Shown: positions 9,694 through 56,666, counted from the first letter of the stretch. The stretch is DNA of 64,000 nt from Paenibacillus darwinianus (GCF_000598065.1 NZ_KK082171.1:1-64000), one strand, 5' to 3'. Numbers and translations: made by a program. The notes: a model not told the origin generated them from the letters alone.

Positions 9694-9774
9694 TTCGCGT
9701 CGGGTTCCGGGAAGGGTGAAAGTCGTATGTTGCGCACCGCAACTGACTATTACTTTTATCAAGGGGGATTTTCC

Positions 9775-11136: not shown

Positions 11137-11151
11137 TCGTGCCTGAACCGT

Positions 11152-11198
11152 CCGCGGCAGGACTGAGCCTGTGACGAAGAAGACTCGTCCTGTCGCGG
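11152..11198 (+). other. Intercistronic stem-loop between binding-protein and permease genes
   Basis: Arms 11152-11163 and 11187-11198 pair over 12 bp with one mismatch. No T-run follows, so it is more likely an mRNA-stabilising or attenuating hairpin than a full terminator. Confidence 0.55.
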
Positions 11199-11255
11199 CC
11201 AACGAATCGGTATGGCGTATCCGGTCAGTCAATCGTTATGAGGTGGTGAATTGGT

Positions 11256-12146: not shown

Positions 12147-12157
12147 GGGGTGCGCAG

Positions 12158-14811: not shown

Positions 14812-15134
14812 GGACATTAAGCCATTAATCTCTTTTCGGGCACCTCCTCTTCATGCGTGCTGATTTTCGCGATCTATCCATTTACCGGGAAAAAGTCGAT
14901 ATAATACTGCACTGGTATTCTGGTCTACTGTCAAGGCAGAAATCATTCAGAGTCTATGCTAACAAAAAAGTATTTCATTTACCTAACGTTATGTTGTAAA
15001 ATAACAATGGATGGCGATACATGTAAGATGAAATAGGCTTGATCAGATAGGAGCAGCTTGTGGCAGACGGCGCGGCAACGCAATTGCAGCATTTTACCTG
15101 CCCGTCGCTGCTTGGAGATTACAGGGGGACTAGG
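14812..15134. other. Intergenic region before the second LacI-family gene
   Basis: About 320 bases with no credible gene. TATAAT at 14900-14905 and TAAAAT at 14997-15002 are possible -10 boxes, both with weak -35 sequences. Confidence 0.3.
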
Positions 15135-16175
15135 ATGATGGCGATGAGGGGCAAAGTAACCGTACAGGAAATAGCCGATTTGGCGGGTGTGTCCAAATTT
15201 GCTGTTTCGAGGGCGTTATCCGGAAAATCGGGCGTCAGCGCGCAAACGCGGGAAATGATTCTTCGTGCGGCCGGACAGCTCGGGTATTTCAAGAACGAAC
15301 CCAAAAGCTTCACCAACGAACTGAACGAATACAGCGGCAAAAAAGTGTCGGGTACCGTCGTCGTATTGTTTCCGAATATCCGGTACCAGAACAACGAGTC
15401 GGTCTATTGGGGGCCGGTGTTCGACGGAATCTCCGCCCGCTTGAACCAGCGAGGCATGGATATTCTGACCCTGACGGAACCTTCAAGCGATCATGTATTC
15501 TCGCTGCTTAATCCGGACGCGATTCAGGGAATCATTACGGTCGGTACGATTTCGACGGCGATTCTGCTCGACATCAATCGGCTCAATATTCCGGTGGTCA
15601 TGGTGGATCATCAGGATCCGGCTTTCCATTGCGATACCGTCTTTACGGATAATTTCACATGCATGAAGGAATTGGTCACCAAGCTCGTCAGCAAAGGCTA
15701 TAAAGACTTTCAATTCGTCGGCGATATCGGGGACGCACAAAGCTTCTACGAGCGCTGGCTCGCGTTCAAATCGACACTGGAGCAATTCGGGATTTCGTAT
15801 CAGCCGATAGCAGAGCTTATCGGCCCGCCGGTGAGGGAAGTCCATGTCGTAATGGCGGATATCGCCGAAAAACAATTGCCGGAAGTGCTGGTCTGCGCGA
15901 ACGATATTAATGCGGCCGTCACGATTGAAACGCTGCAGAAAAGAGGCATAATGATCCCGGAGCGGTGTGCCGTTACGGGCTTTGACAATACATTCGATAC
16001 GCTGCCGATTCTGGCCACGGTGAACGTCAACAAGGAGCTGCTCGGCATGAGGGCCGTCGATCAAATGCTCTGGCGAATCGCAAACAAGGAGTCGAGCGTG
16101 GAGAAAAAGCTGATTTACGGCGATATCGTCATGCGTGAACAGCATTCTTTTCAGCTCACGGGATCAACACAATAG
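15135..16175 (+). CDS. LacI-family transcriptional regulator
   Basis: A 346-residue regulator. The helix-turn-helix near residues 8-28 (TVQEIADLAGVSKFAVSRALSG) is followed by TREMILRAAGQLGYF and a sugar-binding-protein-like domain with AVTGFDNTFDTLPILATVNV. The hinge region is longer and more polar than usual (KSFTNELNEYSGKKVSGTVVV). ATG 15135 has AGGGGG six bases upstream. The in-frame GTG 75 bases earlier would add 25 residues unlike any LacI N-terminus. It is followed by a terminator and then the binding protein at 16542, which has an inverted repeat AAGCG-TAAA-CGCTT in its leader (16441-16454) that may be this regulator's operator. Confidence 0.9.
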   Translation: MMAMRGKVTVQEIADLAGVSKFAVSRALSGKSGVSAQTREMILRAAGQLGYFKNEPKSFTNELNEYSGKKVSGTVVVLFPNIRYQNNESVYWGPVFDGISARLNQRGMDILTLTEPSSDHVFSLLNPDAIQGIITVGTISTAILLDINRLNIPVVMVDHQDPAFHCDTVFTDNFTCMKELVTKLVSKGYKDFQFVGDIGDAQSFYERWLAFKSTLEQFGISYQPIAELIGPPVREVHVVMADIAEKQLPEVLVCANDINAAVTIETLQKRGIMIPERCAVTGFDNTFDTLPILATVNVNKELLGMRAVDQMLWRIANKESSVEKKLIYGDIVMREQHSFQLTGSTQ

Positions 16176-16454: not shown

Positions 16455-16541
16455 TATCGTGGAATTCGACGGGGGTCAGACCCACAGAACGGTGCTTAAC
16501 GGGTAACAATCGCCCGCAAAATGAGAACTGGAGGTCAGACG

Positions 16542-17909
16542 ATGAAAAAAATGAAAGTGCTTTCGCTGGTGCTGATGGCGCTCATGTTGATCGTTACGGC
16601 TTGCGGCGGCAATAACACAGGGAGCAATAATCCCGCGAATGAAAATGTAAACGCAAACAATGGTGCTGCGACGAACGCCGAAGCACCCGCGGAGGATCCG
16701 AAAGAAGAAGCGGCGGCGGATCTTGGCGGGCGCGTCATCAGAATGGCGGCTTGGTGGGACATGACACCGAAGGGTGAGACCGCCGGCGAGAAAGCGCGGC
16801 TTGAAAAAATCGCCGAGATCGAGAAGAAATACAACGTGAAAATTGAGTTTGTCAACGTGCCTTTCGAGGAATACATGAACAAATTCACGACCACCGTGCT
16901 TGCGGGCGAACCGTTTGCGGACATTGTTCAGTTGGAGTACAAAAGCGCGATTGCGCCGGTACTGAAGGGCCAACTCCTTCCGCTCAGCGAATTTACCACG
17001 GCGGATAACGACATCAATAACGCGCAGAAGCTGACGATTAAATTGCCTCCGCTGGCTGGAGGAGAATACGGCTTCGATACCCCGGGACTGTCCTCGGTAG
17101 GCATTCACTATAACCGCGATCTTTTCAAAAAGCTTGGTTTGCCTGATCTTCAGGATGTCTATAACAGCGGCGAATGGACATGGGACAAGTTCCTCGAGAT
17201 CGCCAAGCAAGCGACCCGCGACACCGACAACGACGGTAAAACCGATACGTACGGATTTTCTGGCTGGACCGGCAACATCGTAACGAACTTCGCAGCTTCC
17301 AATGGCGGCAAAATTGCCGACGATGAAACGGGGAAGGAAGGTCTTTCCGATCCGAGAGTGATCGAGGCGCTGGAGTTTGTCAATCGTCTCTACAACGAGG
17401 AGAACGTCGTATTTGTCAAGGGCGGCAACAAAACCGATTATAACGAGTTCAACACGTATAAAGACGGCAACGTGGCGATGTTTATCGGTTACGAGTGGAT
17501 GCTGGGCGACCAGCCTTTTGAAGTCGGTGTCGTTCCGATGCCGATTGGGCCGCAGGGCACGAAAGATTTCACCTATGCGAATACCGCATTGGGCGGCAAA
17601 TTCATCCCGAAAGGCATAAAAGATCCGCAAGTCGTCTACCAGATCTTCGAAGAGATGCAGGACGTTCCGCCGACAGAGGAGTATGTAGGCCAGGATTACA
17701 TGGAATCGAAGTATTCGACGGAAGCTGATATCCAGATGATTCGCGATAACATCCAAGGCACAGGCATGGTGTATGTGCACGAAGGCTATCCGGACTTCCC
17801 GATCGGAGCGGTGATGGAGGACATTATCGTGAATAACGTATCGGTATCGTCCACGGTTGAGAAATACAAGCAGCAAGCGCAGGCATCGATGGATAAGCTG
17901 AAACCATAA
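16542..17909 (+). CDS. ABC sugar-binding lipoprotein, orphan
   Basis: The 455-residue type-1 solute-binding protein has a lipobox IVTAC with the anchored cysteine at residue 21. An Asn/Ala/Glu-rich linker follows, and then the fold (GGRVIRMAAWWDMTPKGE; FVNVPFEEYMNKFTTTVLAGEPFADIVQ; YKDGNVAMFIGYEWML). Start ATG 16542 lies six bases after GGAGGT. Its own promoter, tandem repeats upstream and a terminator at 17935 make it a single-gene unit. The nearest permeases belong to the module at 21109-29546; it might feed the second pair there (27622/28545), which has no binding protein beside it. Substrate unknown. Confidence 0.9.
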   Translation: MKKMKVLSLVLMALMLIVTACGGNNTGSNNPANENVNANNGAATNAEAPAEDPKEEAAADLGGRVIRMAAWWDMTPKGETAGEKARLEKIAEIEKKYNVKIEFVNVPFEEYMNKFTTTVLAGEPFADIVQLEYKSAIAPVLKGQLLPLSEFTTADNDINNAQKLTIKLPPLAGGEYGFDTPGLSSVGIHYNRDLFKKLGLPDLQDVYNSGEWTWDKFLEIAKQATRDTDNDGKTDTYGFSGWTGNIVTNFAASNGGKIADDETGKEGLSDPRVIEALEFVNRLYNEENVVFVKGGNKTDYNEFNTYKDGNVAMFIGYEWMLGDQPFEVGVVPMPIGPQGTKDFTYANTALGGKFIPKGIKDPQVVYQIFEEMQDVPPTEEYVGQDYMESKYSTEADIQMIRDNIQGTGMVYVHEGYPDFPIGAVMEDIIVNNVSVSSTVEKYKQQAQASMDKLKP

Positions 17910-17934
17910 CGGCAATCGGCAATTCCGGACAGGA

Positions 17935-17974
17935 AGAGAGGGTTGCGTCAAAGGGACGCGGCCCTTTCTGTTTG
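17935..17974 (+). terminator. Terminator after orphan binding-protein gene
   Basis: 15-base arms 17935-17949 and 17955-17969 pair with a few wobble positions; a T-rich tail follows. Confidence 0.7.
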
Positions 17975-18150
17975 TGAAGATCATAACGGTGCGAAAAACA
18001 AAAAGCATAATGTTCAGGTGAAAATGACTTATATAAACAGCGAAAATAATGATCAAACAAGATCCTAAACAATTAACAAAAAGCTTGATAATATGAAGCC
18101 TGAAACCGAATCGTGGATCGTATGGAGCTTATTCGATAGGGGGGCTGGCT

Positions 18151-21093
18151 TTGAAGAGTAAAGCAAGACTCAAGAGATGGGCATCGGCAACGATCGGCAT
18201 ATGCCTGGTTTCGGGGGTATTGATGACCTCGCCGCCTGTGTACGCTTTGGAAGCCGGGAAGTCCGCAGCACCGGACAACGCGGCCGGCCCATTGTCAGGC
18301 AACGACCGGCTATTCGAATTGCTGGAGGACAAACCGGCCTACTCCGATTATGTGGCGAAGTATGAAAGCGCTGTACAACCGGAACGGGAGATCGTGCTGG
18401 AAGGCACGGATTATACGCGTGTCGAAGGCAGAGGCTTCAAATCGGTACAAGCTTTCGATGGGCAGAGCGGCTCTTCCCTGCTCACCGGGGAGCAAGGCGA
18501 GGTGGAATGGACCTTTCAAGTGCCGGAAGCCGGATTCTATACGATTTCGATGCTCTATTACCCGATTGAAGGGAAAAGCTCAAGCATCGAACGCACGGTA
18601 TTGATCGACGGTGCCATACCATTCGAAGAAGCGGCCTATGTGCAATTCGACCGTATTTGGGACAACGAGTACGACGAAATTCAGCGGGACAATCGCGGGA
18701 ACGACCTTCGGCCTCAGCAGGTCGAGAAGCCCGCTTGGCGTGCCGCAGTCTTTAAGGATTTCGAGGGCTATTATGACAAACCTTTCCAATTCTACCTATC
18801 AAAAGGTACGCATACCTTGACGTTGATCTCGCAGCGTGAGCCGATGATCATCCGGAATCTGAAACTGTTTCCATATAAGGACCCCGCTTCTTATGAGGAC
18901 ACGTTAAAGCGCTATCAGGCAGAGGGGCAGGAAGAAACCGAAGGATTATTAATTGAAGTTCAGGGGGAAGACGCGATTGCGAAATCGTCTCCGACGCTGT
19001 ATCCGGTAAATGAACGGACGAGTCCCGCCGTCTACCCGTACAGCGCGAAGGAAGTTCGCATCAATACGATCGGGGGTTACAACTGGCGCATCCCCGGTCA
19101 ATGGATCGAATGGGAAATCGACGTACCGGAAACGGGCTTATATAAAATCGCCTTCAAGGCACAGCAGAACTTCGTGAGAGGCATCTATTCGACCAGGCAA
19201 TTGACGATTGACGGAGAGGTGCCGTTCAAGGAAATGGAGAAGGTTGCGTTCCGGTTCAAGAATGGCTACCGGATGGACGTGATGGGCGCCAAGGAGCCCT
19301 ATCTGTTCAAGCTGGAGAAGGGTAAGCATATCCTTCGCCTGGAGACGAGCCTCGGCGAATTCGCGCCGCTCATCCGTGAGGTCGAAGACAGTCTGTTCAA
19401 TCTGAATGCGATGTATCGAAAAATTTTGATGGTTACCGGCACCGCGCCGGACGAGGTCCGTGACTACAGTGTCGAGCAGCGGATTCCGAATTTGTTGGAA
19501 ACCTTCCAGGCTGAAAGCGATCGGCTGAAAGAAGTAGGCAAGCAGCTGAAAGCGTTATCCGGAGGAAGCAGCGACTCCGAGGCGCTGCTGAAGACGATGT
19601 CCGTCCAACTGGATGAAATGATCAAGGATCCCGATACGATTCCGAGAAGGCTGACAGCCTATAAAACCAATACCGGAGGCCTCGGAACCTGGATCCTGAA
19701 AGCGCGGGAGATGCCGCTGGAGATTGACGCCATCTATGTCTTGTCTCCGGACAAGAAGCTGCCGAAAGCCGGGATGGGGTTCTTCGCGGAACTATGGCAT
19801 GAGATCGCAACGTTCTTTTATTCGTTCGTCATCGACTACAACCAAATCGGCAACGTGACAGAAGCGGAAGACCGGCGGTCCGTTACGGTCTGGATCGGCA
19901 GCGGCAGGGATCAGGCAAATACGCTGAAATCGATGATCGACGAAACCTTCACGCCGCTAACGGGCATTAACGTGAATTTGAAGCTGGCACAGATGCAAAC
20001 TTTGCTTCCCGCCACGCTGGCGGGTCAGGGGCCGGACGTGGCGATGCAGATCGGGAACGATCTTCCTGTGAACTATGCAATGCGGAATGCGGCGGCCGAC
20101 CTGACGCAGTTCCCGGATTTCGAAGAGGTATCGAAACGGTTCAGGGAAAGCGCCTTCGTTCCTTACTCTTATCAGAAAGGCGTTTATGCGTTGCCAGAAA
20201 CGCAAACCTTCAACATGCTGTTTTATCGGAAAGACGTGCTGAAGGAGCTTGGACTGGACATTCCGCATACGTGGGGTGACGTCTCCAACCTGCTGGCGGT
20301 CCTGAACAAGAACCAGATGCAATTTGCGCTCCCGCTCGTGCTTCAGCCGTCCTACCCGGGGGAAAACATCCCGCCGAATTCCGTGTACGCAACGCTGCTC
20401 ATGCAGAACGGCGGGCAATTCTATCGCAACGGGGGTAAAGAATCCGACCTGGATTCCCGGATCGGCGTTGAGACGTTTAAGGTGTGGACGGAGTTTTATA
20501 CCGATTACAGGCTGGAGCGGGAATTCGATTTCCCGAACCGGTTCAGGACCGGCGAGATGCCGATCGGACTGGCGGATTATACAATGTATAACCAATTGTC
20601 GGTGTTTGCGCCGGAAATCCGCGGTATGTGGGGATTCGTTCCCGTACCGGGAACCGTGCAGAAAGATGGCGCCATCAACCGTGAGGTTCCAAGCGGCGGC
20701 AGCGGTACCCTGATGCTCGAAAGCGCCGAAGACAAAGAAGCGGCTTGGGCGTTCATGAAATGGTGGACCGGCGATGAGACGCAAACGCAGTTCGGCCGTG
20801 AGATGGAAGGCTTGATGGGCGCAGCGGCCCGTTATCCGACGGCGAACATCAACGCATTGGACAGCCTCCCTTGGACGGTAGGCGATTACCGGAATCTGAA
20901 AGCCCAGTTCGAGTGGGTGCGCGGCATTCCAGAGGTGCCGGGCGGCTATTTCACCGGTCGACATTTGTTCAATGCGTTCTACAGGGTCGTCGTTAATGCG
21001 AAGACCCAGCCGAGAGAAGCCATGATGGATTATGTCCAGTATATTCAAGACGAGATCAGCACCAAACGGAAAGAATTCGGTCTGGCTGACTAA
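18151..21093 (+). CDS. 980-residue exported solute-binding protein with carbohydrate-binding-like N-terminal domains
   Basis: The protein is more than twice the usual length of a sugar-binding protein. Residues 1-32 are a Sec signal peptide ending near PPVYA; there is no lipobox cysteine. Two similar beta-sandwich units follow, about residues 70-245 and 268-430. Each has a strand pattern IVLEGTDY / WTFQVPEAGFYTISMLYYP / RTVLIDGAIPF and WIEWEIDVPETGLYKIAFKAQ / RQLTIDGEVPF, reminiscent of CBM35/CBM6-type modules. A helical stretch and an amphipathic segment (543-565) lead into a type-1 solute-binding fold from about 575 (RRSVTVWIGSGRDQANTLKSMID) to the end. The TTG start at 18151 follows AGGGGGG. 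It heads a tightly spaced eight-gene run with two permease pairs. It probably grips a long glycan with the N-terminal domains and delivers it through the C-terminal lobe; this role is inference. Confidence 0.85.
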   Translation: MKSKARLKRWASATIGICLVSGVLMTSPPVYALEAGKSAAPDNAAGPLSGNDRLFELLEDKPAYSDYVAKYESAVQPEREIVLEGTDYTRVEGRGFKSVQAFDGQSGSSLLTGEQGEVEWTFQVPEAGFYTISMLYYPIEGKSSSIERTVLIDGAIPFEEAAYVQFDRIWDNEYDEIQRDNRGNDLRPQQVEKPAWRAAVFKDFEGYYDKPFQFYLSKGTHTLTLISQREPMIIRNLKLFPYKDPASYEDTLKRYQAEGQEETEGLLIEVQGEDAIAKSSPTLYPVNERTSPAVYPYSAKEVRINTIGGYNWRIPGQWIEWEIDVPETGLYKIAFKAQQNFVRGIYSTRQLTIDGEVPFKEMEKVAFRFKNGYRMDVMGAKEPYLFKLEKGKHILRLETSLGEFAPLIREVEDSLFNLNAMYRKILMVTGTAPDEVRDYSVEQRIPNLLETFQAESDRLKEVGKQLKALSGGSSDSEALLKTMSVQLDEMIKDPDTIPRRLTAYKTNTGGLGTWILKAREMPLEIDAIYVLSPDKKLPKAGMGFFAELWHEIATFFYSFVIDYNQIGNVTEAEDRRSVTVWIGSGRDQANTLKSMIDETFTPLTGINVNLKLAQMQTLLPATLAGQGPDVAMQIGNDLPVNYAMRNAAADLTQFPDFEEVSKRFRESAFVPYSYQKGVYALPETQTFNMLFYRKDVLKELGLDIPHTWGDVSNLLAVLNKNQMQFALPLVLQPSYPGENIPPNSVYATLLMQNGGQFYRNGGKESDLDSRIGVETFKVWTEFYTDYRLEREFDFPNRFRTGEMPIGLADYTMYNQLSVFAPEIRGMWGFVPVPGTVQKDGAINREVPSGGSGTLMLESAEDKEAAWAFMKWWTGDETQTQFGREMEGLMGAAARYPTANINALDSLPWTVGDYRNLKAQFEWVRGIPEVPGGYFTGRHLFNAFYRVVVNAKTQPREAMMDYVQYIQDEISTKRKEFGLAD

Positions 21094-21108
21094 AGGGAGG
21101 ATGCAAGG

Positions 21109-22074
21109 ATGTCAAACGCGAGTCTGCCGCATACGCCGCCCGCCGCGGCCGCTAAACCGGCGGTCCGGCGCGAGACCTGGTGGACGATCAGGAAGAAGGC
21201 GATGAAGGCCCATAAACACTCTTACATATTGATGGCGCCTTACATGCTGTTGTTCGGGCTGTTCACCATCCTGCCGGTCGTCATGTCTATACTGATCGGC
21301 TTTACGTATTTCAATATGCTCGAGTTTCCGCGGTTCATCGGATGGCAGAACTACACGCGCCTGTTCCTCGAGGACGATGTTTTCCTGATCGCGATCAAGA
21401 ATACGCTGTTGTTCGCTGCCATAACCGGTCCGCTCAGCTATCTGGCCAGTTTTGTTTTTGCTTGGATCATTAACGATTTACGGCCGAAGATGAGGGCGTT
21501 CATGACGCTGATTTTCTATGCCCCTTCCATTTCCGGCAACGTGTTCTTTATCTGGCTGATCATTTTCTCCGGCGATCGTTACGGAATCGCCAACGGCTTC
21601 CTCATTAATTTAGGGATGATGCTGGAGCCGATTCAATGGCTCAAGACGGAAAAGTACATTTTGCCGATCATCATTCTTGTTCAACTGTGGCTCAGTCTGG
21701 GCACCGGCTTCCTGGCTTTCATCGCCGGTCTGCAGACGGTCGATCGCACCTTGTACGAAGCCGGTGCGGTAGACGGCGTGAACAACCGTTGGCAGGAGTT
21801 GTGGTATATTACGCTCCCGTCCATGAAACCGCAGCTGATGTTCGGAGCTGTCATTCAGCTCACCGCCTCATTCGCGGTGGCGGATGTCTCCATCGCGCTC
21901 GCCGGGTTTCCGAGCGTCAACTATGCGGCGGAAACCATCGTCACCCATCTGATCGACTTCGGCACGATCCGATTCGAGATGGGCTTCGCCTCCGCGATTG
22001 CGACCGTGCTGTTCATGTTGATGGTCGGCACGAATTTGATCGTTCAACGACTTCTGCGGAAGGTGGGTGAGTAA
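21109..22074 (+). CDS. Carbohydrate ABC permease, MalF type (pair 1)
   Basis: A 321-residue membrane subunit. A positively charged cytoplasmic N-terminus (WWTIRKKAMKAHKHSYI) is followed by about six helices starting at residue 40, with the EAA loop near residue 217 (EAGAVDGVNNRWQELWYITLPSM). The start ATG 21109 is 15 bases after the binding-protein stop, with a clear GGGAGG. It should form the channel with the next gene and receive substrate from the 980-residue binding protein. Confidence 0.9.
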   Translation: MSNASLPHTPPAAAAKPAVRRETWWTIRKKAMKAHKHSYILMAPYMLLFGLFTILPVVMSILIGFTYFNMLEFPRFIGWQNYTRLFLEDDVFLIAIKNTLLFAAITGPLSYLASFVFAWIINDLRPKMRAFMTLIFYAPSISGNVFFIWLIIFSGDRYGIANGFLINLGMMLEPIQWLKTEKYILPIIILVQLWLSLGTGFLAFIAGLQTVDRTLYEAGAVDGVNNRWQELWYITLPSMKPQLMFGAVIQLTASFAVADVSIALAGFPSVNYAAETIVTHLIDFGTIRFEMGFASAIATVLFMLMVGTNLIVQRLLRKVGE

Positions 22075-22078
22075 GCGT

Positions 22079-22951
22079 ATGAATAATTCCGCATTCATGC
22101 TTAGGGGCAAAAAACGCGTGAACCGTTCGTTCATGGGAAGCTTCTGGTTATTCCTGCTGCTCGCGCTTATGGGGGCTTTCATGGCTTTGCCTCTCGTGTA
22201 CGCGATCAATGCCGCCTTCAAGCCTTTGGACGAGGTATTCCTATTCCCGCCGACGCTTTTCGTCCGGAATCCCACGATGACCAACTTCGTCGATCTGGTC
22301 AATCTGCTAGGTAATTCCTGGGTTCCGTTCTCGCGTTATCTATTCAACACGGTATTCATTACCGGGATGGGCATAGCGGGCCACGTCCTTCTGGCATCGG
22401 CGGCGGCTTATCCGCTTGCCAAGCATTATTTTCCGGGCAAAACGATCCTGTTCACCACCGTTGTCCTGTCGCTTATGTTCACGCCGCAGGTTACCGCGAT
22501 TCCGAACTATATGATCATGTCTTGGATCGGTTTGATCGACACGTACTGGGCGGTCATCGTGCCCGCATTCGCATTTCCGTTAGGCCTGTATCTGATGAAG
22601 CAGTTCATGGAGCAGATGCCCGACGCCCTGATGGAAGCGGCCAAAATCGACGGCGCCAGCGAATATCGGATTTTCTGGCAGATTGTCATGCCTAACGTCA
22701 AGCCGGCTTGGCTGACGCTGATCATCCTGCTTTTTCAAATGCTCTGGGGCTCGGACGGGAACGGCTTCATCTACAGCGAACAGCTCAAAACGCTGCATTA
22801 CGCTTCAAACCAGATCATTCAAGGCGGCATTGCCCGGGCCGGCGTGGGCGCCGCGGTAGCGCTGATCCTGATGAGCGTGCCGATCACCCTGTTCATGTTC
22901 TCGCAGAGCCGCATCATTGAAACCATGGCCACTTCCGGCATGAAGGACTGA
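22079..22951 (+). CDS. Carbohydrate ABC permease, MalG type (pair 1)
   Basis: A 290-residue subunit with six predicted helices, the EAA loop near residue 185 (EAAKIDGASEYRIFWQIVMP) and a MalG-like C-terminus (SQSRIIETMATSGMKD). ATG 22079 lies four bases after the stop of the previous permease and eight after GGTGGGTGA. An in-frame GTG at 22067 would overlap the upstream gene and is a less likely start. Confidence 0.9.
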   Translation: MNNSAFMLRGKKRVNRSFMGSFWLFLLLALMGAFMALPLVYAINAAFKPLDEVFLFPPTLFVRNPTMTNFVDLVNLLGNSWVPFSRYLFNTVFITGMGIAGHVLLASAAAYPLAKHYFPGKTILFTTVVLSLMFTPQVTAIPNYMIMSWIGLIDTYWAVIVPAFAFPLGLYLMKQFMEQMPDALMEAAKIDGASEYRIFWQIVMPNVKPAWLTLIILLFQMLWGSDGNGFIYSEQLKTLHYASNQIIQGGIARAGVGAAVALILMSVPITLFMFSQSRIIETMATSGMKD

Positions 22952-22964
22952 GGGGGGTCGACGG

Positions 22965-24431
22965 ATGCTGCTGAAAAAAGCGATTCTCGTATTGGCTGTT
23001 GTTTCCCTTCTGGCAATCGATGCCGTCCCGGCTGCGGCGTCCGCGCCTTACGACAGCTATACCTACAATTATTATGAGGACGGTGTCCGGATTCCGGCGC
23101 CGTTCCTCCCCGACCGTTCCGTATCGGGTGCGGATCTCGGCGTCGGTGACTTCGTCGATCCGAACGACATGTATGTAACGGTTGACGGCCAGATTTATAT
23201 TCTCGACAGCGGCAACCGCCGCATCATCAGCTTGGATAAGAATTGGCGTCTCATCCGCGAGATCGCGGTTTTCGACAACAACGGCAAAGAGGACGGCTTC
23301 GCCAACCCGGGCGGCATTTTCGTGACCGAAGATAAACGGATCTATGTCGCGGACACCGAGCGTCAACGCATTGTTGTGCTGACGAACGAAGGGGATCTCG
23401 TCAACATCATCGAGAACCCGGCGTCCGACATTCTGCCTCGGGATTTCAAGTTCGTCCCGCTGAAGGTGACGGTGGACAAGGCGAACCGCGTGTTCGTCGT
23501 CGTGCGGGGGGTATTCGAAGGGCTGATGCAGTTCGACGAGAACGGCGCGTTCATCGGATATGTCGGAACCATCAATCTGACGCAGAATCTGTGGGATAAA
23601 ATGTGGAGGCTCGTGGCAACGGATGCGCAGAAGCGCCAGATGCGGTTGTATATTCCGACCGAGTTCGTGAGCGTCGATATCGACCAAAAGGGCTTCGTCT
23701 ATTCGACCAACATCGATCTGGAGACCCAAAAGCCGGTAAAACGGCTCAACCCTTCCGGCCAGGACGTGTTGAAGCGGTTCGGCCGCCATCCCGTAGTCGG
23801 CGATGTGCGTTACCGGATTTTCGGCAACAATGCCGGGCCTTCGAAGCTCGTGGACATCAAGGTGCTCGGCGACGGCATGTATACCGTGCTCGATTCGTTC
23901 CGAGGCCGGCTATTCACGTACAACGACGAGGGCGAGCTGTTGTACGTTTTCGGCGGCAAAGGCACGCAGCTCGGCACCTTTAAGACCCCTGTCGCCGTTG
24001 AACGAGTGGGGGATAAGCTCGCCGTGCTGGACCGCGGCAAGAACAGCATAGCCGTGTTCAAGCCGACCGCGTTCGGCAGAAGCGTCCATCAGGCGGTAAG
24101 GCTTCAGTATAACGGCAACGATGCCGAATCGGTGAAGATGTGGAAGGAGGCGCTTCGCATGAACGCCAACTACGACATTGCCTATATCGGGATCGGCAAA
24201 GCGATGCTGATGGAGAAGAAGAACAAGGAGGCACTGGAATATTTCAAGCTCGGCATGCAGCGGAAGTATTATTCGGTCGCTTACAAGCGATACCGCAGAG
24301 AGGTAATGAAAGAGTATTTCGGCACCTTCCTAACCGTGCTGATGGCGGCCGTAGCCGCGCTGGCGGCATTCCGGCTGACGAAGAGAGGGAGAACGAGGAG
24401 GGCTGAGCGCCGTGAAGCAGGACTTTATTAA
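22965..24431 (+). CDS. Exported NHL-propeller/TPR protein with C-terminal membrane anchor
   Basis: This 488-residue protein has a signal peptide at residues 1-25 (ending AAASA). At least six beta-propeller-type repeats follow (GQIYILDSGNRRIISLD, KRIYVADTERQRIVVLT, KLAVLDRGKNSIAVF and others). A short TPR-like helical part comes at about 375-450 (YDIAYIGIGKAMLMEKKNKEALEYFKLGMQ), then one transmembrane helix (about 452-470) and a basic tail. The architecture implies a surface-exposed propeller tethered to the outside of the membrane with its tail in the cytoplasm. NHL propellers bind proteins, RNA or glycans; which applies here is unknown. The gene lies inside an ABC transport operon, between permeases and a Yip1-like membrane protein, and its end overlaps the next start by 20 bases. 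It is therefore probably a structural part of the uptake complex. Confidence 0.8.
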   Translation: MLLKKAILVLAVVSLLAIDAVPAAASAPYDSYTYNYYEDGVRIPAPFLPDRSVSGADLGVGDFVDPNDMYVTVDGQIYILDSGNRRIISLDKNWRLIREIAVFDNNGKEDGFANPGGIFVTEDKRIYVADTERQRIVVLTNEGDLVNIIENPASDILPRDFKFVPLKVTVDKANRVFVVVRGVFEGLMQFDENGAFIGYVGTINLTQNLWDKMWRLVATDAQKRQMRLYIPTEFVSVDIDQKGFVYSTNIDLETQKPVKRLNPSGQDVLKRFGRHPVVGDVRYRIFGNNAGPSKLVDIKVLGDGMYTVLDSFRGRLFTYNDEGELLYVFGGKGTQLGTFKTPVAVERVGDKLAVLDRGKNSIAVFKPTAFGRSVHQAVRLQYNGNDAESVKMWKEALRMNANYDIAYIGIGKAMLMEKKNKEALEYFKLGMQRKYYSVAYKRYRREVMKEYFGTFLTVLMAAVAALAAFRLTKRGRTRRAERREAGLY

Positions 24432-25032
24432 GTTTCCGCTTCATGTCATCCTGCGTCCGTTCGACGGATTCTGGGACATGAAATACGAAGCGAAAGGCAA
24501 GATGAGGGTAGCGCTGTCCGTGCTGTTCCTCGTCGTGATCACGATGATCCTGCAGAAGCAATACGCGGGGTTCTTGGTGAACTTCAATGATCCGCGGTAT
24601 CTGAACAGTCTTAACGATCTGCAATATATCGTACTGCCGTTCTTCCTCTGGTGCATCGCGAACTGGTCGATCACGACGTTGATGGAGGGAGAAGGCAATT
24701 TCAAGGAGATCGTGATGGCTTCGGCCTATGCGATGGCGCCGCTCATTCTGATCTACTTGCCGACGACATTCTTGAGCCGGTTCATGGCTGCCGAAGAAAC
24801 GGCATTTTATTATCTGCTGAATTCGATTGCCGTCATCTGGTTTCTGTTCTTGTTATTCGTCGGCATCATGACGGTGCATCAGTATACGGCGGCCAAGACC
24901 GTGCTGACGATGGTCCTTAGTGTCGTGGCGATGGGCATCATCGTCTTCCTGGGCACGCTGGCTTACAGTATGATCATGCAGATGTACTGGTTTGTGATTG
25001 ACATCTACCGGGAACTGATATTCCGGGCATAA
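24412..25032 (+). CDS. Yip1-family integral membrane protein
   Basis: A 206-residue polytopic membrane protein with about five helices (residues 31-50, 71-90, 100-118, 130-150 and 165-190). The N-terminal cytoplasmic piece FPLHVILRPFDGFWDMKYEAKGKM is the recurrent start of bacterial Yip1-like proteins. GTG 24412 overlaps the NHL gene end, a sign of translational coupling. No enzyme motif is visible. In this module it could scaffold the NHL and DUF5696 proteins at the membrane; that is a guess from position alone. Confidence 0.75.
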   Translation: MKQDFIKFPLHVILRPFDGFWDMKYEAKGKMRVALSVLFLVVITMILQKQYAGFLVNFNDPRYLNSLNDLQYIVLPFFLWCIANWSITTLMEGEGNFKEIVMASAYAMAPLILIYLPTTFLSRFMAAEETAFYYLLNSIAVIWFLFLLFVGIMTVHQYTAAKTVLTMVLSVVAMGIIVFLGTLAYSMIMQMYWFVIDIYRELIFRA

Positions 25033-25046
25033 GGAGGCCGCCCCCC

Positions 25047-27629
25047 TTGATAAAACAAAAAAAATGGCTAGCGGTGGCGGCCTGCGCCGCAATTGCCGGA
25101 ATCGCAGTCTTTTTCATTATTCTCAACACGCGCGGCGTACCGGCCATCGATGCGGCTTCTTATACGCAAGGTACGGCTGAGCTTGCGCGAGCGGCGGCGC
25201 TTAAGGCGCTTCCGGGCGGCTCGGACGCAGTCCCGGGCATGAAGCTCGTTGCGCAGACCGACGATCTGGCTTTGTATTATCATGCCGATACGACAGAGTT
25301 CGCTGTAGAGGATAAGCGCAGCGGCAAGATATGGCGCAGCAGCCCGGCCGAACGCGATTCGGATGCCAAAGCGTCGCCGTTCGAGAAGGAGTCCATGGCC
25401 TCTCCGGTCAACATTTCCTTCCGGGACGCGGTTGGTAACCTGAACACGTACACCAGCTTCGGACAGAGCGTCAGCAAGCAGCAGTTTACAGCGGAAAGCA
25501 TCGAGAACGGGGTCCGGGTCACCTATACGCTCGGGGACATGTCGCTCGGGATTGAAGCGCTGCCCCGGCTGATCAGCAAGAAACGGCTGGAGGAGAAGGT
25601 TCTCAGTAAATTGGACGAAGCGACTGCGCGTTACGTCGGTTTGCGCTATTATCCGCTATCTTCAAATAAGGAAGTGCTGGAGCGTATGGACGCCCAACTT
25701 GCCCGGCAGCTGGTGCTGAACAAAATGCTGGCCGCCTTCGAAAAAGCGGGTTACACGACGGACGATTTGGCGCTCGACAACGAAGAGAACGGGATTGCCG
25801 GGGGCGCGGCTTCCGATCGGCCCAACTTCACCGTACCGCTCGAATACAGGCTGGACGGCGATTCCCTGCTGATCTCGGTGCCAGTCGCGCAGATCAAGGA
25901 AAGCGAAGCCTATCGCATCCGCTCGATCGAGCTGCTCGGTTATTTCGGAGCCGCAGGCATGGAGGAGAACGGCTACATGTTCGTGCCGGACGGAACGGGT
26001 AGCCTGATCTATTTAAACAATGGCAAAGTGAAAAACGAACTGTATGCGCAGCGTTTGTACGGCGACGACTACAACGATAACAGCGGCCGCCGCGGCCAAG
26101 TCGCCCAAAGCGCACGAATGCCGGTATTCGGCTTGAAGTCGGGCGGCGACGCCTGGTTCGCGGTCATCGAACAAGGAGACGGAATCGCCGGCATCAACGC
26201 CGATATTTCCGGCAAACAAAACTCCTACAACCATGTGTACAGCAGCTTTGCCGTTCGCGGAGAGGACTCGCTGGATCTCTACAAGGGCAATCAAGTAGAG
26301 TCCATCAAACTGTTGTCGGAGCGGCGGTATGAAGGCGACATCAAGGTTCGGTACAGTTTCCTGTCCGGTGAAGACGCGGATTATTCCGGCATGGCCAAGC
26401 TCTACCGCAACCGGCTTACGGAGACAGGCGTTCTGAAGCCGCTCGAAGAAAGCGCTGCAATCCCGTTCTATGTGGATATGTTGGGGGCGATCGAGAAGAG
26501 GCGAACCTTCCTGGGCATTCCTTATGATGCACTGGTGTCGATGACCTCCTTCGAACAGGCCGGGCAAATCGCCGAAAAGCTTCAATCGGACGGGATCACC
26601 AATATCCAAATGCGATTTATGGGCTGGTTCAATAAGGGTTTGAACCATAAGCTGCCTGTGAACGTGAAGGTGGACGAAGTGCTTGGCGGGAAGCCGGAAT
26701 TGAAGGCGCTCGAGGACAAGGTGGCCGAAATCGGCGGTAGGCTGTACCCGGATGTGTCCTTCCAGCAAGTGTACCAAGATGACCGCTATTTCACCCCTTC
26801 TTCGGATGGGGCAAGGTTTCTTACCCGGGAAGAAGCGGCGCGTACAGCGTTTAATCCCGCGTTCAACGCCATGGACTTCGATTTGGGCATCTATTATCTC
26901 CTGTCCCCCGCCAAGCTTCCGTATTATGTCGATCAGTTCATCGACAGCTACGCTTCGTACGGGACGGACGCCGTTGCTCTTCGCGATCTCGGAGATTTGG
27001 TCTATTCGGATTACCGCGTAAATCGCGTCATTTTCCGTGAAACCGCCAAGAACATCATTACTGGGCAGCTCGGGAAGATCAAGGAGAAATACCCGAATAC
27101 GTTACTGACCGGAGGGAACGCCTTTGCGCTGCCATATGCCGATCAGGTTATCAATGTGCCGACTTCGACCAGTAAATTCAATATTACGGATGAGGAAGTG
27201 CCCTTCTATCAGATGGTGCTGCATGGATTCGTCGACTATGCCGGATCGGCGATCAATCTGGACGACGAGCAGGACATGAAACGGCAAATGCTTCGCAGCC
27301 TAGAACTCGGTGCGGCTCCTCATTTCCTGTGGTCCTACGAGCCGTCGTCCAAGCTGAAGTACACCCGCTTCGATACCATGTATTCCACGGATTACGTGGC
27401 ATGGTATGACGATGCCGTTGCCATGTACAAAGAAGTAAACGCGGTGCTCTCCGGCTTACGGACGCAAGCGATCAAACGTCATACGCGGCTTGCCGACGGA
27501 CTCGTGGAGGTTCAATATGAGGACGGTGCATCCGTTCTCGTCAACTATACCGAACAGCCCGTCATGATCAAAGGGACTCGCGTAGATGCGCAAAGTTATG
27601 CGCTCGTAAGGGGTGGCAAAGATGAATAA
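25047..27629 (+). CDS. DUF5696-type membrane-anchored protein, possible uncharacterised glycosidase
   Basis: This 860-residue protein has an uncleaved-looking membrane segment at residues 6-27 (WLAVAACAAIAGIAVFFIIL) and a large extracellular part. An N-terminal beta-rich domain (to about 470; LALYYHADTTEFAVEDKRSGKIW, YLNNGKVKNELYAQRLYGDDY) resembles the beta-sandwich before many glycosidase barrels. Then comes an alternating alpha/beta stretch consistent with a (beta/alpha)8 barrel (about 485-775), with acidic positions at putative strand ends: Asp647 and Asp650 in RDLGDLVYSD, Glu765 in LWSYEPS. A small C-terminal beta domain (VEVQYEDGASVLVNYTEQPV) follows. This three-part plan is that of several retaining glycosidase families, so I suspect a novel hydrolase or a catalytically dead relative. 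The TTG start at 25047 follows AAGGAGG; the end overlaps the next permease by eight bases. Confidence 0.7.
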   Translation: MIKQKKWLAVAACAAIAGIAVFFIILNTRGVPAIDAASYTQGTAELARAAALKALPGGSDAVPGMKLVAQTDDLALYYHADTTEFAVEDKRSGKIWRSSPAERDSDAKASPFEKESMASPVNISFRDAVGNLNTYTSFGQSVSKQQFTAESIENGVRVTYTLGDMSLGIEALPRLISKKRLEEKVLSKLDEATARYVGLRYYPLSSNKEVLERMDAQLARQLVLNKMLAAFEKAGYTTDDLALDNEENGIAGGAASDRPNFTVPLEYRLDGDSLLISVPVAQIKESEAYRIRSIELLGYFGAAGMEENGYMFVPDGTGSLIYLNNGKVKNELYAQRLYGDDYNDNSGRRGQVAQSARMPVFGLKSGGDAWFAVIEQGDGIAGINADISGKQNSYNHVYSSFAVRGEDSLDLYKGNQVESIKLLSERRYEGDIKVRYSFLSGEDADYSGMAKLYRNRLTETGVLKPLEESAAIPFYVDMLGAIEKRRTFLGIPYDALVSMTSFEQAGQIAEKLQSDGITNIQMRFMGWFNKGLNHKLPVNVKVDEVLGGKPELKALEDKVAEIGGRLYPDVSFQQVYQDDRYFTPSSDGARFLTREEAARTAFNPAFNAMDFDLGIYYLLSPAKLPYYVDQFIDSYASYGTDAVALRDLGDLVYSDYRVNRVIFRETAKNIITGQLGKIKEKYPNTLLTGGNAFALPYADQVINVPTSTSKFNITDEEVPFYQMVLHGFVDYAGSAINLDDEQDMKRQMLRSLELGAAPHFLWSYEPSSKLKYTRFDTMYSTDYVAWYDDAVAMYKEVNAVLSGLRTQAIKRHTRLADGLVEVQYEDGASVLVNYTEQPVMIKGTRVDAQSYALVRGGKDE

Positions 27630-28524
27630 ACGAAGTTTGACCCTTACCCGGCGGAGAGCTTTGCTTGGCGTCGCATTCATTCTCCCTTGGCTGCTCGGAT
27701 TTTTGTTCCTGTTCGCGATACCGCTCGTGCAGTCCGTCAAGTTCAGCTTCAACGAACTGATCATTGCACCCGGCGGATACGAATTGATGAATGTCGGCTG
27801 GAAAAACTTCAACGACGCCTTATTCGTCGATGCGAATTTTAACCGGATTCTTACGGATTCCGTGGCAGCGATGCTCGTGGATGTGCCGTTGATTTTGTTC
27901 TTCAGCCTGTTCGCGGCAACGCTGCTTAATCAGAAGTTCAAGGGCCGGGGCTTCGCGAGAGCGGTTTTTTTCCTGCCGGTTATTCTGGCCTCCGGCGCGA
28001 TTGCGTCGGCCGAAGCGGCGGGCCTTATCAACCTGGTCGGCAATTCGGAGGCGGCAAAAGAGGTCGGAGACGCCCAATCCGGGGTCGATATCCTGTCCAT
28101 GGTCATCATGCTGGATGAAGCCGGTATGCCGCGGTGGTTCATCGACTATATTATCGAAGCCGTCATGCGGATTTATGAAATTATCCGCAGCTCCGGCGTA
28201 CAGATTCTCATTTTCCTGGCCGCCCTGCAGTCGGTTCCTGCCGCGATGTACGAAGTGGCCAAGATGGAAGGCGCAACGCCTTACGAATCATTCTGGAAAA
28301 TTACGTTTCCGATGGTGAGTCCGCTTATTCTAACCAATGCCATTTATACGATTATCGATTCGTTCACGGACAGCCCGGTTACCCAAACGATATTCGCGAC
28401 GGCGTTTCAGACGCAGAATTTCGGTCTCAGCGCCGCCATGTCCTGGCTGTATACGCTGGTCGTCGGCGTCCTGCTGCTTATTGTCGGCGTGCTGATTTCC
28501 AGAAAAGTGTTCTACTATAACTGA
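27622..28524 (+). CDS. Carbohydrate ABC permease, MalF type (pair 2)
   Basis: A 300-residue membrane subunit (LTRRRALLGVAFILPWLLGFLFLFAIPLVQSVKFSFNEL) with the EAA-type loop near residue 211 (EVAKMEGATPYESFWKITFPMV). Compared with the other MalF-type permeases it has an extra ~40-residue periplasmic insert between the middle helices (LVGNSEAAKEVGDAQSG onwards). ATG 27622 lies nine bases after AAGGGG and overlaps the DUF5696 stop by eight bases. It has no binding protein of its own beside it. Confidence 0.88.
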   Translation: MNKRSLTLTRRRALLGVAFILPWLLGFLFLFAIPLVQSVKFSFNELIIAPGGYELMNVGWKNFNDALFVDANFNRILTDSVAAMLVDVPLILFFSLFAATLLNQKFKGRGFARAVFFLPVILASGAIASAEAAGLINLVGNSEAAKEVGDAQSGVDILSMVIMLDEAGMPRWFIDYIIEAVMRIYEIIRSSGVQILIFLAALQSVPAAMYEVAKMEGATPYESFWKITFPMVSPLILTNAIYTIIDSFTDSPVTQTIFATAFQTQNFGLSAAMSWLYTLVVGVLLLIVGVLISRKVFYYN

Positions 28525-28544
28525 TTCGAGGGGAGAGGCGAATC

Positions 28545-29546
28545 TTGGATGCCAAAAGGGCACGCAGCGAAGCGGTAATCTATTACAAGTTCAGGAAGAC
28601 CAAGAACAAATCGCTGGAGTGGCTATGGGCCGCATTCCGGTATGCGCTGATTATCGGGATCTCGTTCGTCATCCTCTATCCTTTGCTGCAGAAAGTGTCG
28701 GTTGCCGTTAAAGCGAAAGAGGATATTTATAATCCGACGATCTATATGGTGCCCGTAAACTTCACGCTTGACAACATCCGCATGGCGATCGAGCTGCTCG
28801 ACTATTGGCCGCTTCTTGGAAATACGCTCTTATTCGTGACGGTGATTACCTTGCTGCAGGCCGCTTCGTGTGCGCTTGCGGGCTATGGCTTCGCCCGGTT
28901 TGATTTTCCCGGAAGCAACGTGTTGTTCACACTGGTCATTCTTACCATCCTGATCCCGATGAGCACCTTGATGGTTCCGATGTACCTTCATTTCCGAAGC
29001 TTCGACATTCTCGGCATCGTCAGTCTGTTGACCGGTAAGGACGGCGTGAATTTGCTGAATACGTTCTGGCCGTCCATGATCACGGCAGCAACCGCAAACG
29101 GATTGAAGTCGGGTCTGTTCATCTATATTTTCCGTCAATTTTTCCGGGGGCTGCCCAAGGAAATCGAGGAAGCGGCGCTCATCGACGGGGCGGGAGGGTT
29201 CAAAACCTTTTTTCGGATCATGCTTCCCAATGCTGTTCCGCCGCTGCTTACCGTGATTCTGTTCGCCTTCGTCTGGCAGTATAACGACACGTTCTTCACC
29301 ACGCTGTTCATGAGCGAGAGCAATCTGATGCCGGTGAATATCGCCGCGCTTCCCGCAGATGCGAGCCAACAGATTCCGCTCATGCTCGGGGTCGGGACCA
29401 ATCCGAATGTGAAGGCGGATCCGAATTATGTGGCGATGGTCGTCGACACCGGTATCCTGCTCGCCATTCTGCCTTTGATCGTGATGTATTGGTTTGTGCA
29501 GCGTTATTTTGTGGAAAGCGTGGAGCGCACGGGCGTTGTCGGCTAA
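28545..29546 (+). CDS. Carbohydrate ABC permease, MalG type (pair 2)
   Basis: A 333-residue subunit, longer than usual because of an N-terminal cytoplasmic extension (DAKRARSEAVIYYKFRKTKNKSLE) and a C-proximal loop (DASQQIPLMLGVGTNPNVKADPNYV). The EAA loop is near residue 207 (EEAALIDGAGGFKTFFRIMLP). TTG 28545 follows GGGGAGAGG at a normal distance. It is the partner of 27622 and ends the eight-gene uptake module; the mannanase gene at 29662 follows after 115 bases without a visible terminator. Confidence 0.88.
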   Translation: MDAKRARSEAVIYYKFRKTKNKSLEWLWAAFRYALIIGISFVILYPLLQKVSVAVKAKEDIYNPTIYMVPVNFTLDNIRMAIELLDYWPLLGNTLLFVTVITLLQAASCALAGYGFARFDFPGSNVLFTLVILTILIPMSTLMVPMYLHFRSFDILGIVSLLTGKDGVNLLNTFWPSMITAATANGLKSGLFIYIFRQFFRGLPKEIEEAALIDGAGGFKTFFRIMLPNAVPPLLTVILFAFVWQYNDTFFTTLFMSESNLMPVNIAALPADASQQIPLMLGVGTNPNVKADPNYVAMVVDTGILLAILPLIVMYWFVQRYFVESVERTGVVG

Positions 29547-29661
29547 ACGGATCGCTCCGCAATCCTGCAGGTTCGCCCGTCTTCGTATGATCGCGATCGA
29601 CGTTGTTCTCACCGAAGTGGATGACGATTCAGACTTAAGACGCAATAGGGAGTGGCTGACC

Positions 29662-30693
29662 ATGATCAATCTGACAAGCGACGCAAATTTTCGGGTCGAA
29701 CCGAACTTGATTAATCCGGACGCATCGGATAACGCGAAGCGGCTGATGGCTTTTCTCTGCGATATGTACGGGAAGCGTATGCTGACCGGCCAGCAAGCGG
29801 GAGTCGGGCGCAACCCGGAGCCGGAGATCATCCTTGAAGCGACGGGAAAATACCCGGCTGTAATGGGATTCGATTTGATGGATTATTCGCCGGGACGGAC
29901 GGAGCGCGGCGCCGTTTCCCAGGATACCGATCTCGCGATCGACTGGTGGAAGCAAGGCGGGATTGTGACGTTCTGCTGGCATTGGGGGGCCCCGAAGGAT
30001 CTGCTGGATCGGGATCCTGACCAGCACTGGAGCAAGGGGTTCTATGCGAACGCGACCGCCTTCGATATCGAAGCGGCGATGAAGGATCCGTCTTCGGAAT
30101 CATTTGCTTTGCTACTTCGCGATATCGACGCGATCGCCGAAGAGCTACGCCGGCTTCAGGACGAGGGCGTGCCGGTGCTGTGGCGTCCGCTGCACGAGGC
30201 GTCCGGCGGCTGGTTCTGGTGGGGCGCGAAAGGCCCTGGGCCCTGTATTGCGCTTTGGAAGCTGATGTACGACCGGTTGACGCGGCTTCACGGACTGAAT
30301 AACCTGATCTGGGTCTGGAACGGCCAGCACGGCGATTGGTACCCGGGCGACGAATATGTGGACATCATCGGCGAAGACATTTATCCGCCGGAGCGAAATT
30401 ATGAGTCGCAAGTCGACCGGTTCCGTCAGGCGTTGTCCTATACGTCCGCCAATAAGATCATTACGCTGTCCGAGAACGGACCCCTGCCGGACCCTGACCT
30501 GCTGATTCAGGACGGCGCACCCTGGTCTTGGTGTTGTACGTGGTACGGAACATTCGTGTACAGAGAGGATAACGGACGGCTGGTATACTCCGAGAAATAT
30601 ACGGAACTCAAGATGCTGCGGAAATTATACGATCACCCGTTTACCTTGACGCGGGAAGATTTGCCGGATCTGACGGCCTACCGTCTCCCCTAA
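29662..30693 (+). CDS. GH26 beta-mannanase, cytoplasmic form
   Basis: A 343-residue single-domain GH26 enzyme without a signal peptide. The acid/base is Glu179 in WRPLHEASGGWFWWG and the nucleophile Glu271 in TLSENGPLPDP; both motifs are complete. It also has GFDLMDYSPGR and FCWHWGAPKDL, which line the substrate cleft in bacterial mannanases. It should cut imported beta-1,4-mannan or glucomannan oligosaccharides inside the cell. I start it at ATG 29662, ten bases after AGGGAG; the frame is open further upstream without similarity. It is clearly paralogous to the secreted GH26 at 35264 (the block around the acid/base is nearly identical), so the pair arose by duplication and one copy lost or gained export. 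Confidence 0.92.
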   Translation: MINLTSDANFRVEPNLINPDASDNAKRLMAFLCDMYGKRMLTGQQAGVGRNPEPEIILEATGKYPAVMGFDLMDYSPGRTERGAVSQDTDLAIDWWKQGGIVTFCWHWGAPKDLLDRDPDQHWSKGFYANATAFDIEAAMKDPSSESFALLLRDIDAIAEELRRLQDEGVPVLWRPLHEASGGWFWWGAKGPGPCIALWKLMYDRLTRLHGLNNLIWVWNGQHGDWYPGDEYVDIIGEDIYPPERNYESQVDRFRQALSYTSANKIITLSENGPLPDPDLLIQDGAPWSWCCTWYGTFVYREDNGRLVYSEKYTELKMLRKLYDHPFTLTREDLPDLTAYRLP

Positions 30694-34204: not shown

Positions 34205-34252
34205 AACAGAGGGCACGTCAACTTGGTGTGCGACCTTCCGGAGGACAACAGA

Positions 34253-35224
34253 TTGAATCGGATGTTCATAAAAGGCATGACATGGGGTTGGAATAGCACC
34301 CGGGGGGCCTATCGGACGCCGGAAGCGGCGGACTCCATCATAAAGCTGCGTGAAACGGGCAGCGAATGGATCGCCCTGTCGTTCTATACGCGGCAAGAGT
34401 CGGTTCATTCCACGGAAATTCCTTTCGAATACGGCTATACCATGACCGACCGGGACATCGCGTTCGCGGTCGCCGAGGCCCGAAAGGCGGGGCTGAAGGT
34501 ATGCTTGAAGCCCGTCGTGAATTCAAAGGACGGCATATGGCGGGCGCACATCGGATTCCCGGATGAAGAAAGCGCGACGCAGCCTTACTGGGACAAATGG
34601 TTCGAATCCTATACGTATTTCCTGCTGCATTACGCGGAATTGGCGGAGGAGCTCGGCTGCGAAATGTTCTGTGTCGGCTGCGAAATGGTGAAAACCGAAT
34701 CGCAAACGGCCAGGTGGACCACGCTGATCGCGCGCGTCCGGGAGGTTTATTCGGGACCGCTCATCTACAATGCCAATCACGGCAAGGAAGAAGGCGTGGC
34801 CTGGTTCGATCAGGTGGATATGATCGGAACGAGCGCCTACTACCCTGTCGGCAGCGTTCCTGGCGATACGGAAGACAATATGATCGCAAAATGGCTGCCG
34901 GTTCGCGATAAGCTAGCAAAGCTTCACCGCAGGTTCAACAAACCGGTCGTCTTTATGGAAATCGGCTGCCGCAGTGCGCATGGCTGCGCGACGATGCCAT
35001 GGGAGTTCTCGCATACCGAGTTGTCCTTCAATGAAGAAGAGCAAGCGAATTTTTACAGCTCGGCAATAAAAGTATTCTGGGATCAAGAGTGGTTCGGTGG
35101 ATTTTTCTGGTGGGACTGGAGCGTGAAGCTTTATCCCCGATCGGAAGCCAAGAACGACCGCGGCTTCGATATTTACGGCAAACAAGCGGAGACCGTCCTG
35201 AAGCATTGGTATTTGGCTAAATAA
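34253..35224 (+). CDS. GH113 beta-1,4-mannanase, cytoplasmic
   Basis: A 323-residue TIM-barrel enzyme of family 113: the opening MFIKGMTWGWNSTRGAY, the acid/base Glu144 in FCVGCEMVKTE, the nucleophile Glu236 in VFMEIGCRS and a closing FFWWDWSVKLYP. Spacing of the glutamates agrees with the characterised Alicyclobacillus mannanase. There is no signal peptide. The TTG start at 34253 has GGAGGA seven bases upstream; ATG 34262 is an alternative. It would hydrolyse and possibly transglycosylate manno-oligosaccharides inside the cell, alongside the GH26 at 29662. It follows the ruined CE2 gene by 48 bases. Confidence 0.85.
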   Translation: MNRMFIKGMTWGWNSTRGAYRTPEAADSIIKLRETGSEWIALSFYTRQESVHSTEIPFEYGYTMTDRDIAFAVAEARKAGLKVCLKPVVNSKDGIWRAHIGFPDEESATQPYWDKWFESYTYFLLHYAELAEELGCEMFCVGCEMVKTESQTARWTTLIARVREVYSGPLIYNANHGKEEGVAWFDQVDMIGTSAYYPVGSVPGDTEDNMIAKWLPVRDKLAKLHRRFNKPVVFMEIGCRSAHGCATMPWEFSHTELSFNEEEQANFYSSAIKVFWDQEWFGGFFWWDWSVKLYPRSEAKNDRGFDIYGKQAETVLKHWYLAK

Positions 35225-40527: not shown

Positions 40528-40559
40528 AAGGACATAGAGACAACGAGAGGAGCAGAGTG

Positions 40560-41480: not shown

Positions 41481-41492
41481 GGAGGAAACTCA

Positions 41493-42425: not shown

Positions 42426-42477
42426 CCTCAGGGCAACCTGGTTATCAATATAACAATTATTTTAGGGGGATTCAGCC

Positions 42478-56243: not shown

Positions 56244-56344
56244 ATTTTTATTGTTCCGGATCATTATTTTTCTATGTATGCTTTGCATTTGCTTTCGCAA
56301 ATCGGATATGGTATCATCATTCCTATAAGCAAATTTGAACCTCT

Positions 56345-56400
56345 ATCACATATTGAAAAGGGTCGTCATTTTTGTAATGGTACCTTTTTCAATGTGTGAT
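56345..56400. repeat. Large inverted repeat upstream of the cold-shock gene
   Basis: 18-base arms (56345-56362 and 56383-56400) match in 16 positions around a 20-base loop, ending 53 bases before the cold-shock start. It could form a leader-RNA hairpin that changes with temperature, or be a DNA operator. Confidence 0.55.
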
Positions 56401-56452
56401 TTTTGTTCTTATCAAAAAAAACATGTTAAATAAAATCTTGGAGGTAATCTTC

Positions 56453-56653: not shown

Positions 56654-56666
56654 GCCATAGCAAGCA

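Follow-up and report, generated by a model that had tools for sequence, protein, structure and literature searches.

The 64,000-nucleotide stretch described here (the window) is from the soil bacterium Paenibacillus darwinianus (GCF_000598065.1 NZ_KK082171.1:1-64000), the assembly of which is 75% complete. It contains a nine-gene cluster for a putative glycan import system of the ATP-binding cassette (ABC) type. An earlier note on this DNA listed eight genes at 18151-29546 that are separated, or overlap, by a few bases. This description holds, since all eight open reading frames (ORFs) are open at these positions with such spacing and the Pfam families agree: a solute-binding protein (SBP) family in the 980-residue product, four permeases with BPD_transp_1 domains, NHL at E 9e-13 together with a weak TPR match, Yip1, and DUF5696. 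The putative operon begins one gene before the 980-residue SBP gene, with a conventional lipoprotein SBP. The genes are denoted by letters: s, SBP; S, big SBP; F/G, permease pair 1; N, NHL; Y, Yip1; D, DUF5696; f/g, permease pair 2. The features of the cluster are as follows (TM, transmembrane; CBM, carbohydrate-binding module; pLDDT, predicted local distance difference test).

16542..17909, + strand: s, conventional lipoprotein SBP, gene 1 of the cluster (SBP_bac_1, E 3e-26; lipobox; kept beside the big SBP)
17935..17969, + strand: 15-bp stem-loop in the s/S gap, possible attenuator or RNA stabiliser (gap fold z -2.3)
18151..21093, + strand: S, 980-residue SBP with a signal or anchor segment (SBP_bac_8; model pLDDT 87)
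18370..18885, + strand: S jelly roll 1, CBM35/6-like, residues ~74-245 (profile against CBM35/CBM6 structures, E ~1e-3)
18934..19365, + strand: S jelly roll 2, CBM35-like, residues 262-405 (profile against 5x7g, E 3e-9)
19873..21081, + strand: S canonical sugar SBP domain, residues 575-977 (Z 37 to sugar-binding proteins)
21109..22074, + strand: F, MalF-type permease 1 (BPD_transp_1)
22067..22951, + strand: G, MalG-type permease 1 (BPD_transp_1)
22965..24431, + strand: N, signal peptide, NHL propeller, weak TPR and C-terminal TM helix (Pfam NHL; TM 450-473; NHL structures matched)
24412..25032, + strand: Y, Yip1-domain protein with ~5 TM segments (Yip1, E 2e-14; TM prediction)
25047..27629, + strand: D, DUF5696 protein, N-terminal membrane anchor and GH129-fold ectodomain (PF18952; fold Z 29.6)
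27613..28524, + strand: f, MalF-type permease 2 (BPD_transp_1; adjoins D in 160 of 161 loci)
28545..29546, + strand: g, MalG-type permease 2 (BPD_transp_1)

The ORF of s spans 16521-17909, and its likely start is the ATG at 16542 following AGGAGG; the lipobox is LIVTAC. Strong ribosome-binding sites precede most of the cluster genes. The gap between s and S (window 17910-18150) is 241 nt long. Of 116 loci with such a gap, 96 have a strong hairpin there (z < -2 versus shuffles). The hairpin would fit a lipoprotein SBP made in excess and may set the ratio of s to the remaining products. The earlier note assigned a single binding protein to the four permease subunits, which is wrong: a second SBP opens the operon, and therefore two full importers are encoded. 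The composition of a CUT1 importer, an SBP and two BPD_transp_1 permeases, is thus present twice. The sole OB_MalK/MalK-type ATPase found in the host assembly is on another contig, unlinked to the cluster. None of the nine cluster proteins is named by an NCBIfam model at its cut-off.

The gene order is kept in relatives and in other Bacillota families, far more than expected by chance. We read 161 loci, consisting of the window and two sets of 80, the second set coming mostly from Paenibacillus and Cohnella and to a lesser extent from Bacillaceae and Clostridia. The unbroken order sSFGNYDfg is found in 94 loci and sSFGNDfg in 26. D is followed by f in 160 of the 161 (the remaining locus is a contig end), typically with an overlap of 4 bases, and the gene before D is Y or N in 160. 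Recurrence of the order outside this genome, which the earlier note had set in advance as a test of its idea, is therefore borne out. DUF5696 matches at E 0.001 were obtained for 105 of the 150 genomes sampled from the host family (97 exceed the cut-off) and in 17 of its 19 genera, often in multiple copies with up to 7 matches per genome. Across Bacillota, 26 of 299 genomes are over the cut-off. Two further copies of the system lie on another contig of the host genome (L033, G000:C39:1-20000; L034, G000:C39:27001-47000); their DUF5696 proteins have no acidic residue at position 647, and the cluster is still kept.

The two halves of the cluster are separable. In some Clostridia-type genomes, N-D-f-g is found without an adjacent S-F-G (L061, L063, L064, and L078), and S-F-G also stands alone (L201, L203, L207, and L213). 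All 26 of the 299 Bacillota genomes over the DUF5696 cut-off encode the big SBP (Fisher p 2e-34, a value that ignores relatedness), and in three more genomes the only contigs with the big SBP are too short for a judgment. The modules occur alone yet usually together, indicating that two importer modules make up the cluster, with N, Y, and D belonging to the second. The reading that we prefer, with a probability of roughly 0.6, is that the cluster encodes a composite CUT1 system that imports fragments of polysaccharides, where N-Y-D would be held in the membrane as a module of the second importer that binds or processes glycans.

A less probable reading, though a serious one, is that two ordinary CUT1 importers are co-inherited for different products of one glycan (e.g., short versus long or branched ones), with N, Y, and D as minor accessories of the second and no joint machine. 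The presence of each module alone in some genomes agrees with this reading. Each module also comes with a separate SBP and permease pair, and identity between the permeases of the two pairs is only 22-26%. However, in most loci across families the modules adjoin each other in a fixed order, and the big SBP accompanies DUF5696 in every genome over the cut-off.

Y is found in all 161 loci, as a separate gene in 125 and fused behind the C-terminus of N, at the same point, in 36; two of the 125 are short contigs without an NHL gene or without an NHL match. This fusion is good evidence that N and Y act together. A view that Yip1 is missing from many loci was rejected, the apparent absences being caused by the NHL-Yip1 fusion or by overlap in ORF picking.

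In the structure model of S, the SBP domain, the two jelly rolls, a helical bundle, and an amphipathic helix are observed; the Pfam match (SBP_bac_8/1) covers residues 589-883 of 980. Rolls 1 and 2 are duplicates (hhalign E 1e-25 between them). Roll 1 resembles CBM35 2vzp (E 1e-3) and roll 2 a region of 5x7g (E 3e-9), both by profile only, since Pfam CBM_35 is not listed for S at E up to 0.1. The assignment of the rolls is based on this profile comparison because the Foldseek lists for S are occupied by matches to the SBP domain. Unlike CBM35 and CBM6 modules, to which both rolls are similar in profile, the rolls fall below the Pfam thresholds and are joined to an SBP domain. Judging from these similarities, they may bind glycans.

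D matches PF18952 over the full length of the profile (E 9.2e-225; residues 240-851, profile positions 3-612 of 612). We modeled D with AlphaFold2 from 26 sequences (pLDDT 88). In a fold search of the model, nearly the whole ectodomain matches the glycoside hydrolase (GH) family 129 enzyme NagBb (5wzn) with a Z score of 29.6, a root-mean-square deviation of 4.2, and 577 aligned residues. The Z scores for ZgGH129 (DagB), GH101, and GH36 are 29.5, ~20, and ~18, respectively. The sequence profile of D also detects ZgGH129 (E 1e-12) and NagBb (E 2e-8). The Pfam GH129 model (PF11308) does not match D, only DUF5696 being listed at E up to 0.1; a PF11308 search of 199 Bacillota genomes gave no match even in controls and is uninformative on absence. 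D shares its fold with GH129 and GH101 enzymes but differs from GH129 in being membrane-anchored and encoded in an ABC operon. An extracellular glycan role of D, as the earlier note proposed, fits the predicted GH129 fold.

In retaining α-glycosidases of the GH129/GH101/GH36-type fold, the nucleophile is at the end of strand β4. Asp569, Asp647, and Asp715 of D follow barrel strands 3, 4, and 6, respectively (strand count from the secondary structure of the model), which makes Asp647 a candidate for the nucleophile. Among 147 distinct copies of D, Asp is found at these positions in 129, 128, and 136, respectively. All three residues are kept in each of the 62 copies that neighbor mannan or xylan hydrolases. 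A view formed from 26 diverse sequences, that D has no acidic active-site residues, was dropped because the 147 sequences show Asp647 in 87%.

The conserved residues and the fold raise the possibility that D is an active membrane-bound α-glycosidase removing α-linked side groups before import (galactose of galactomannan; glucuronate or arabinose of xylan). We regard this as rather doubtful. An aligned acid/base Glu was not found in D, and position 691, after or on strand β5, is Asn in 97% of the copies. Copies without Asp647, including both other host copies, retain the same neighbors. A profile of the C-terminal half of D against the PDB gave chance matches only, and no residue-by-residue mapping to the GH129 catalytic residues was obtained. 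Among GH129 enzymes, ZgGH129 acts as a 3,6-anhydro-D-galactosidase, and its catalytic residues include Asp486, which corresponds to NagBb Asp435; of the NagBb catalytic residues Asp435 and acid/base Glu478, only Asp435 is kept in ZgGH129 (PMC5698469). The pattern in D would fit a site for glycan binding with catalytic activity in some of the copies, or in no copy at all.

The genes behind the cluster vary across the loci. GH26 is found 3' of g in 40 loci. Other families after g are GH113, GH2 mannosidases, GH10, GH43, GH30, GH9, GH5, GH38, and GH32, and a pectate lyase and an alginate lyase are each found once among the sampled representatives. In the DUF5696 tree, the separation of mannan-type from xylan-type neighbors needs 1 change in 62 rows, while 2000 label shuffles need at least 12. 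The D of the window is in the mannan clade, which agrees with the GH26, GH113, and GH26-CBM35 genes 3' of the cluster and with the GH2 mannosidase-type and GH9 genes earlier in the window. The system as a class is not specific to mannan, since copies lie beside xylan, fructan, and other hydrolases, and the tree can be used to predict the glycan. In the window, mannan hydrolases follow the cluster, as had been noted before; these and the regulators are listed below.

15060..16175, + strand: LacI-family regulator gene, 5' of the cluster (Pfam LacI and Peripla_BP_3)
29494..30693, + strand: GH26, apparently without a signal peptide, probable start ~29662 (Glyco_hydro_26, E 2e-80; translation)
34223..35224, + strand: GH113, apparently without a signal peptide (PF22612, E 2e-124)
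35264..36784, + strand: GH26-CBM35, signal peptide, secreted (domain match; translation)
37077..40384, + strand: histidine kinase and AraC-type response regulator pair (domain matches)

Genes for a GH2 mannosidase-type protein (2592-5144) and GH9 (5205-6827) lie earlier in the window. The GH26 and GH113 proteins seem to be cytoplasmic and GH26-CBM35 seems to be secreted, the usual layout for oligosaccharide import.

That N-Y-D is a transmembrane glycan sensor controlling the operon or the importers, outside the transport path, is improbable: a polytopic membrane protein connected to propeller and glycosidase-fold ectodomains would suit a sensor, as would a DUF5696 tree sorted by substrate, but no cytoplasmic signaling domain was found in the Pfam scan of the cluster proteins, the window already has the LacI regulator and the histidine kinase/response regulator pair, and D adjoins f/g, not a regulator, in 160 of 161 loci.

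In the composite importer, the secreted GH26-CBM35 would yield oligosaccharides. The jelly rolls of S would hold the glycan and pass it to the SBP domain of S for import through F/G. In the second module, the lipoprotein s would pair with f/g, judging from gene order, with N, Y, and D as membrane-attached partners. The propeller of N is presumed to be extracellular, and its C-terminal TM helix would join polytopic Y to form one unit, sometimes one polypeptide, possibly as a membrane scaffold for D. D most likely binds α-linked portions of the glycan at the point of entry into f/g and may cleave them in the main clade. Both permease pairs may use one unlinked MalK-type ATPase, and the cytoplasmic GH26 and GH113 would finish the imported oligosaccharides. 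Different copies of the system would serve different glycans, with mannan for the copy in the window.

Several points weigh against this interpretation. The composite importer is predicted from genes and structure models, and each SBP is assigned to its permeases by gene order. The separability of the modules argues against an obligate supercomplex. Some copies of D have lost the acidic positions at the rim of the barrel. Other ATPases may have been missed because of the incomplete host assembly. The loci were selected through DUF5696, and 132 of the 161 are from Paenibacillaceae (group f1 was taken as that family), so that the locus counts do not represent independent events.

The cluster appears to be a variant of ABC glycan importers. 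CUT1 importers of Gram-positive bacteria are energized by MsmX. The cluster resembles those of the MalEFGK2 type in its SBPs, its MalF/MalG pairs, and a probably shared, unlinked MalK-type ATPase. It differs from them in that two pairs and two SBPs are clustered with NHL, Yip1, and DUF5696 proteins, and in that one SBP is fused to two CBM35-like rolls. DUF5696 is named in no paper found in the open-access literature (subscription papers are outside this coverage), where nothing relevant was found on NHL or Yip1 proteins joined with ABC transporters either; two papers on Paenibacillus polysaccharides do not mention these names. The view of the earlier note is supported in part: the system is conserved and apparently undescribed, and an extracellular glycan role fits the fold of DUF5696, while the picture with a single SBP is wrong. 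The surface complex proposed in that note, which would capture or trim a long glycan before import, is a stronger claim. The system is a widespread, modular, and substrate-sorted putative import system with an uncharacterized GH129-fold partner, and the cluster would give roles to three uncharacterized protein families at once.

Little is known about the capture and import of long or branched plant glycans by Gram-positive bacteria in comparison with the Bacteroidetes Sus systems, in which surface glycan binding, processing, and import are encoded together and re-used for many glycans. A works-like analogy can be drawn with the cluster, though the cluster would be energized as ABC importers, and neither a TonB-dependent transporter nor SusD is found among its products by Pfam. 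It is conceivable, but unlikely, that the whole cluster forms one membrane assembly as a Gram-positive counterpart of Sus. An NHL-Yip1 scaffold would then hold two ABC importers, a GH129-fold docking or debranching gate would sort a long branched glycan between the permease pairs, and the chassis would be re-used with different hydrolases (mannan, xylan, and others) across Bacillota.

Some other genes should be noted. A 965-residue protein without a Pfam match is encoded after the cluster at L093:1061-3955 (minus strand) and in 7 other loci. It is present in 7 of 7 rows of one DUF5696 subclade and is possibly a member of an undescribed hydrolase family. A further importer in the order SBP, MalG, MalF lies at 9727-13027 in the window, near the GH2 mannosidase-type and GH9 genes. 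An LplB/YtcP-like permease pair and a DUF3502 binding protein (40557-44043) lie 3' of the histidine kinase/response regulator pair and are followed by GH42 (44108-46171). An Rfam cspA thermoregulator match at 56325-56698 (84.5 bits) is close to the cut-off of 78. An ORF of 210 residues without a Pfam match (57008-57640), directly 5' of a MalG-type permease gene and a GH4 gene, may encode a shortened or unusual MalF.

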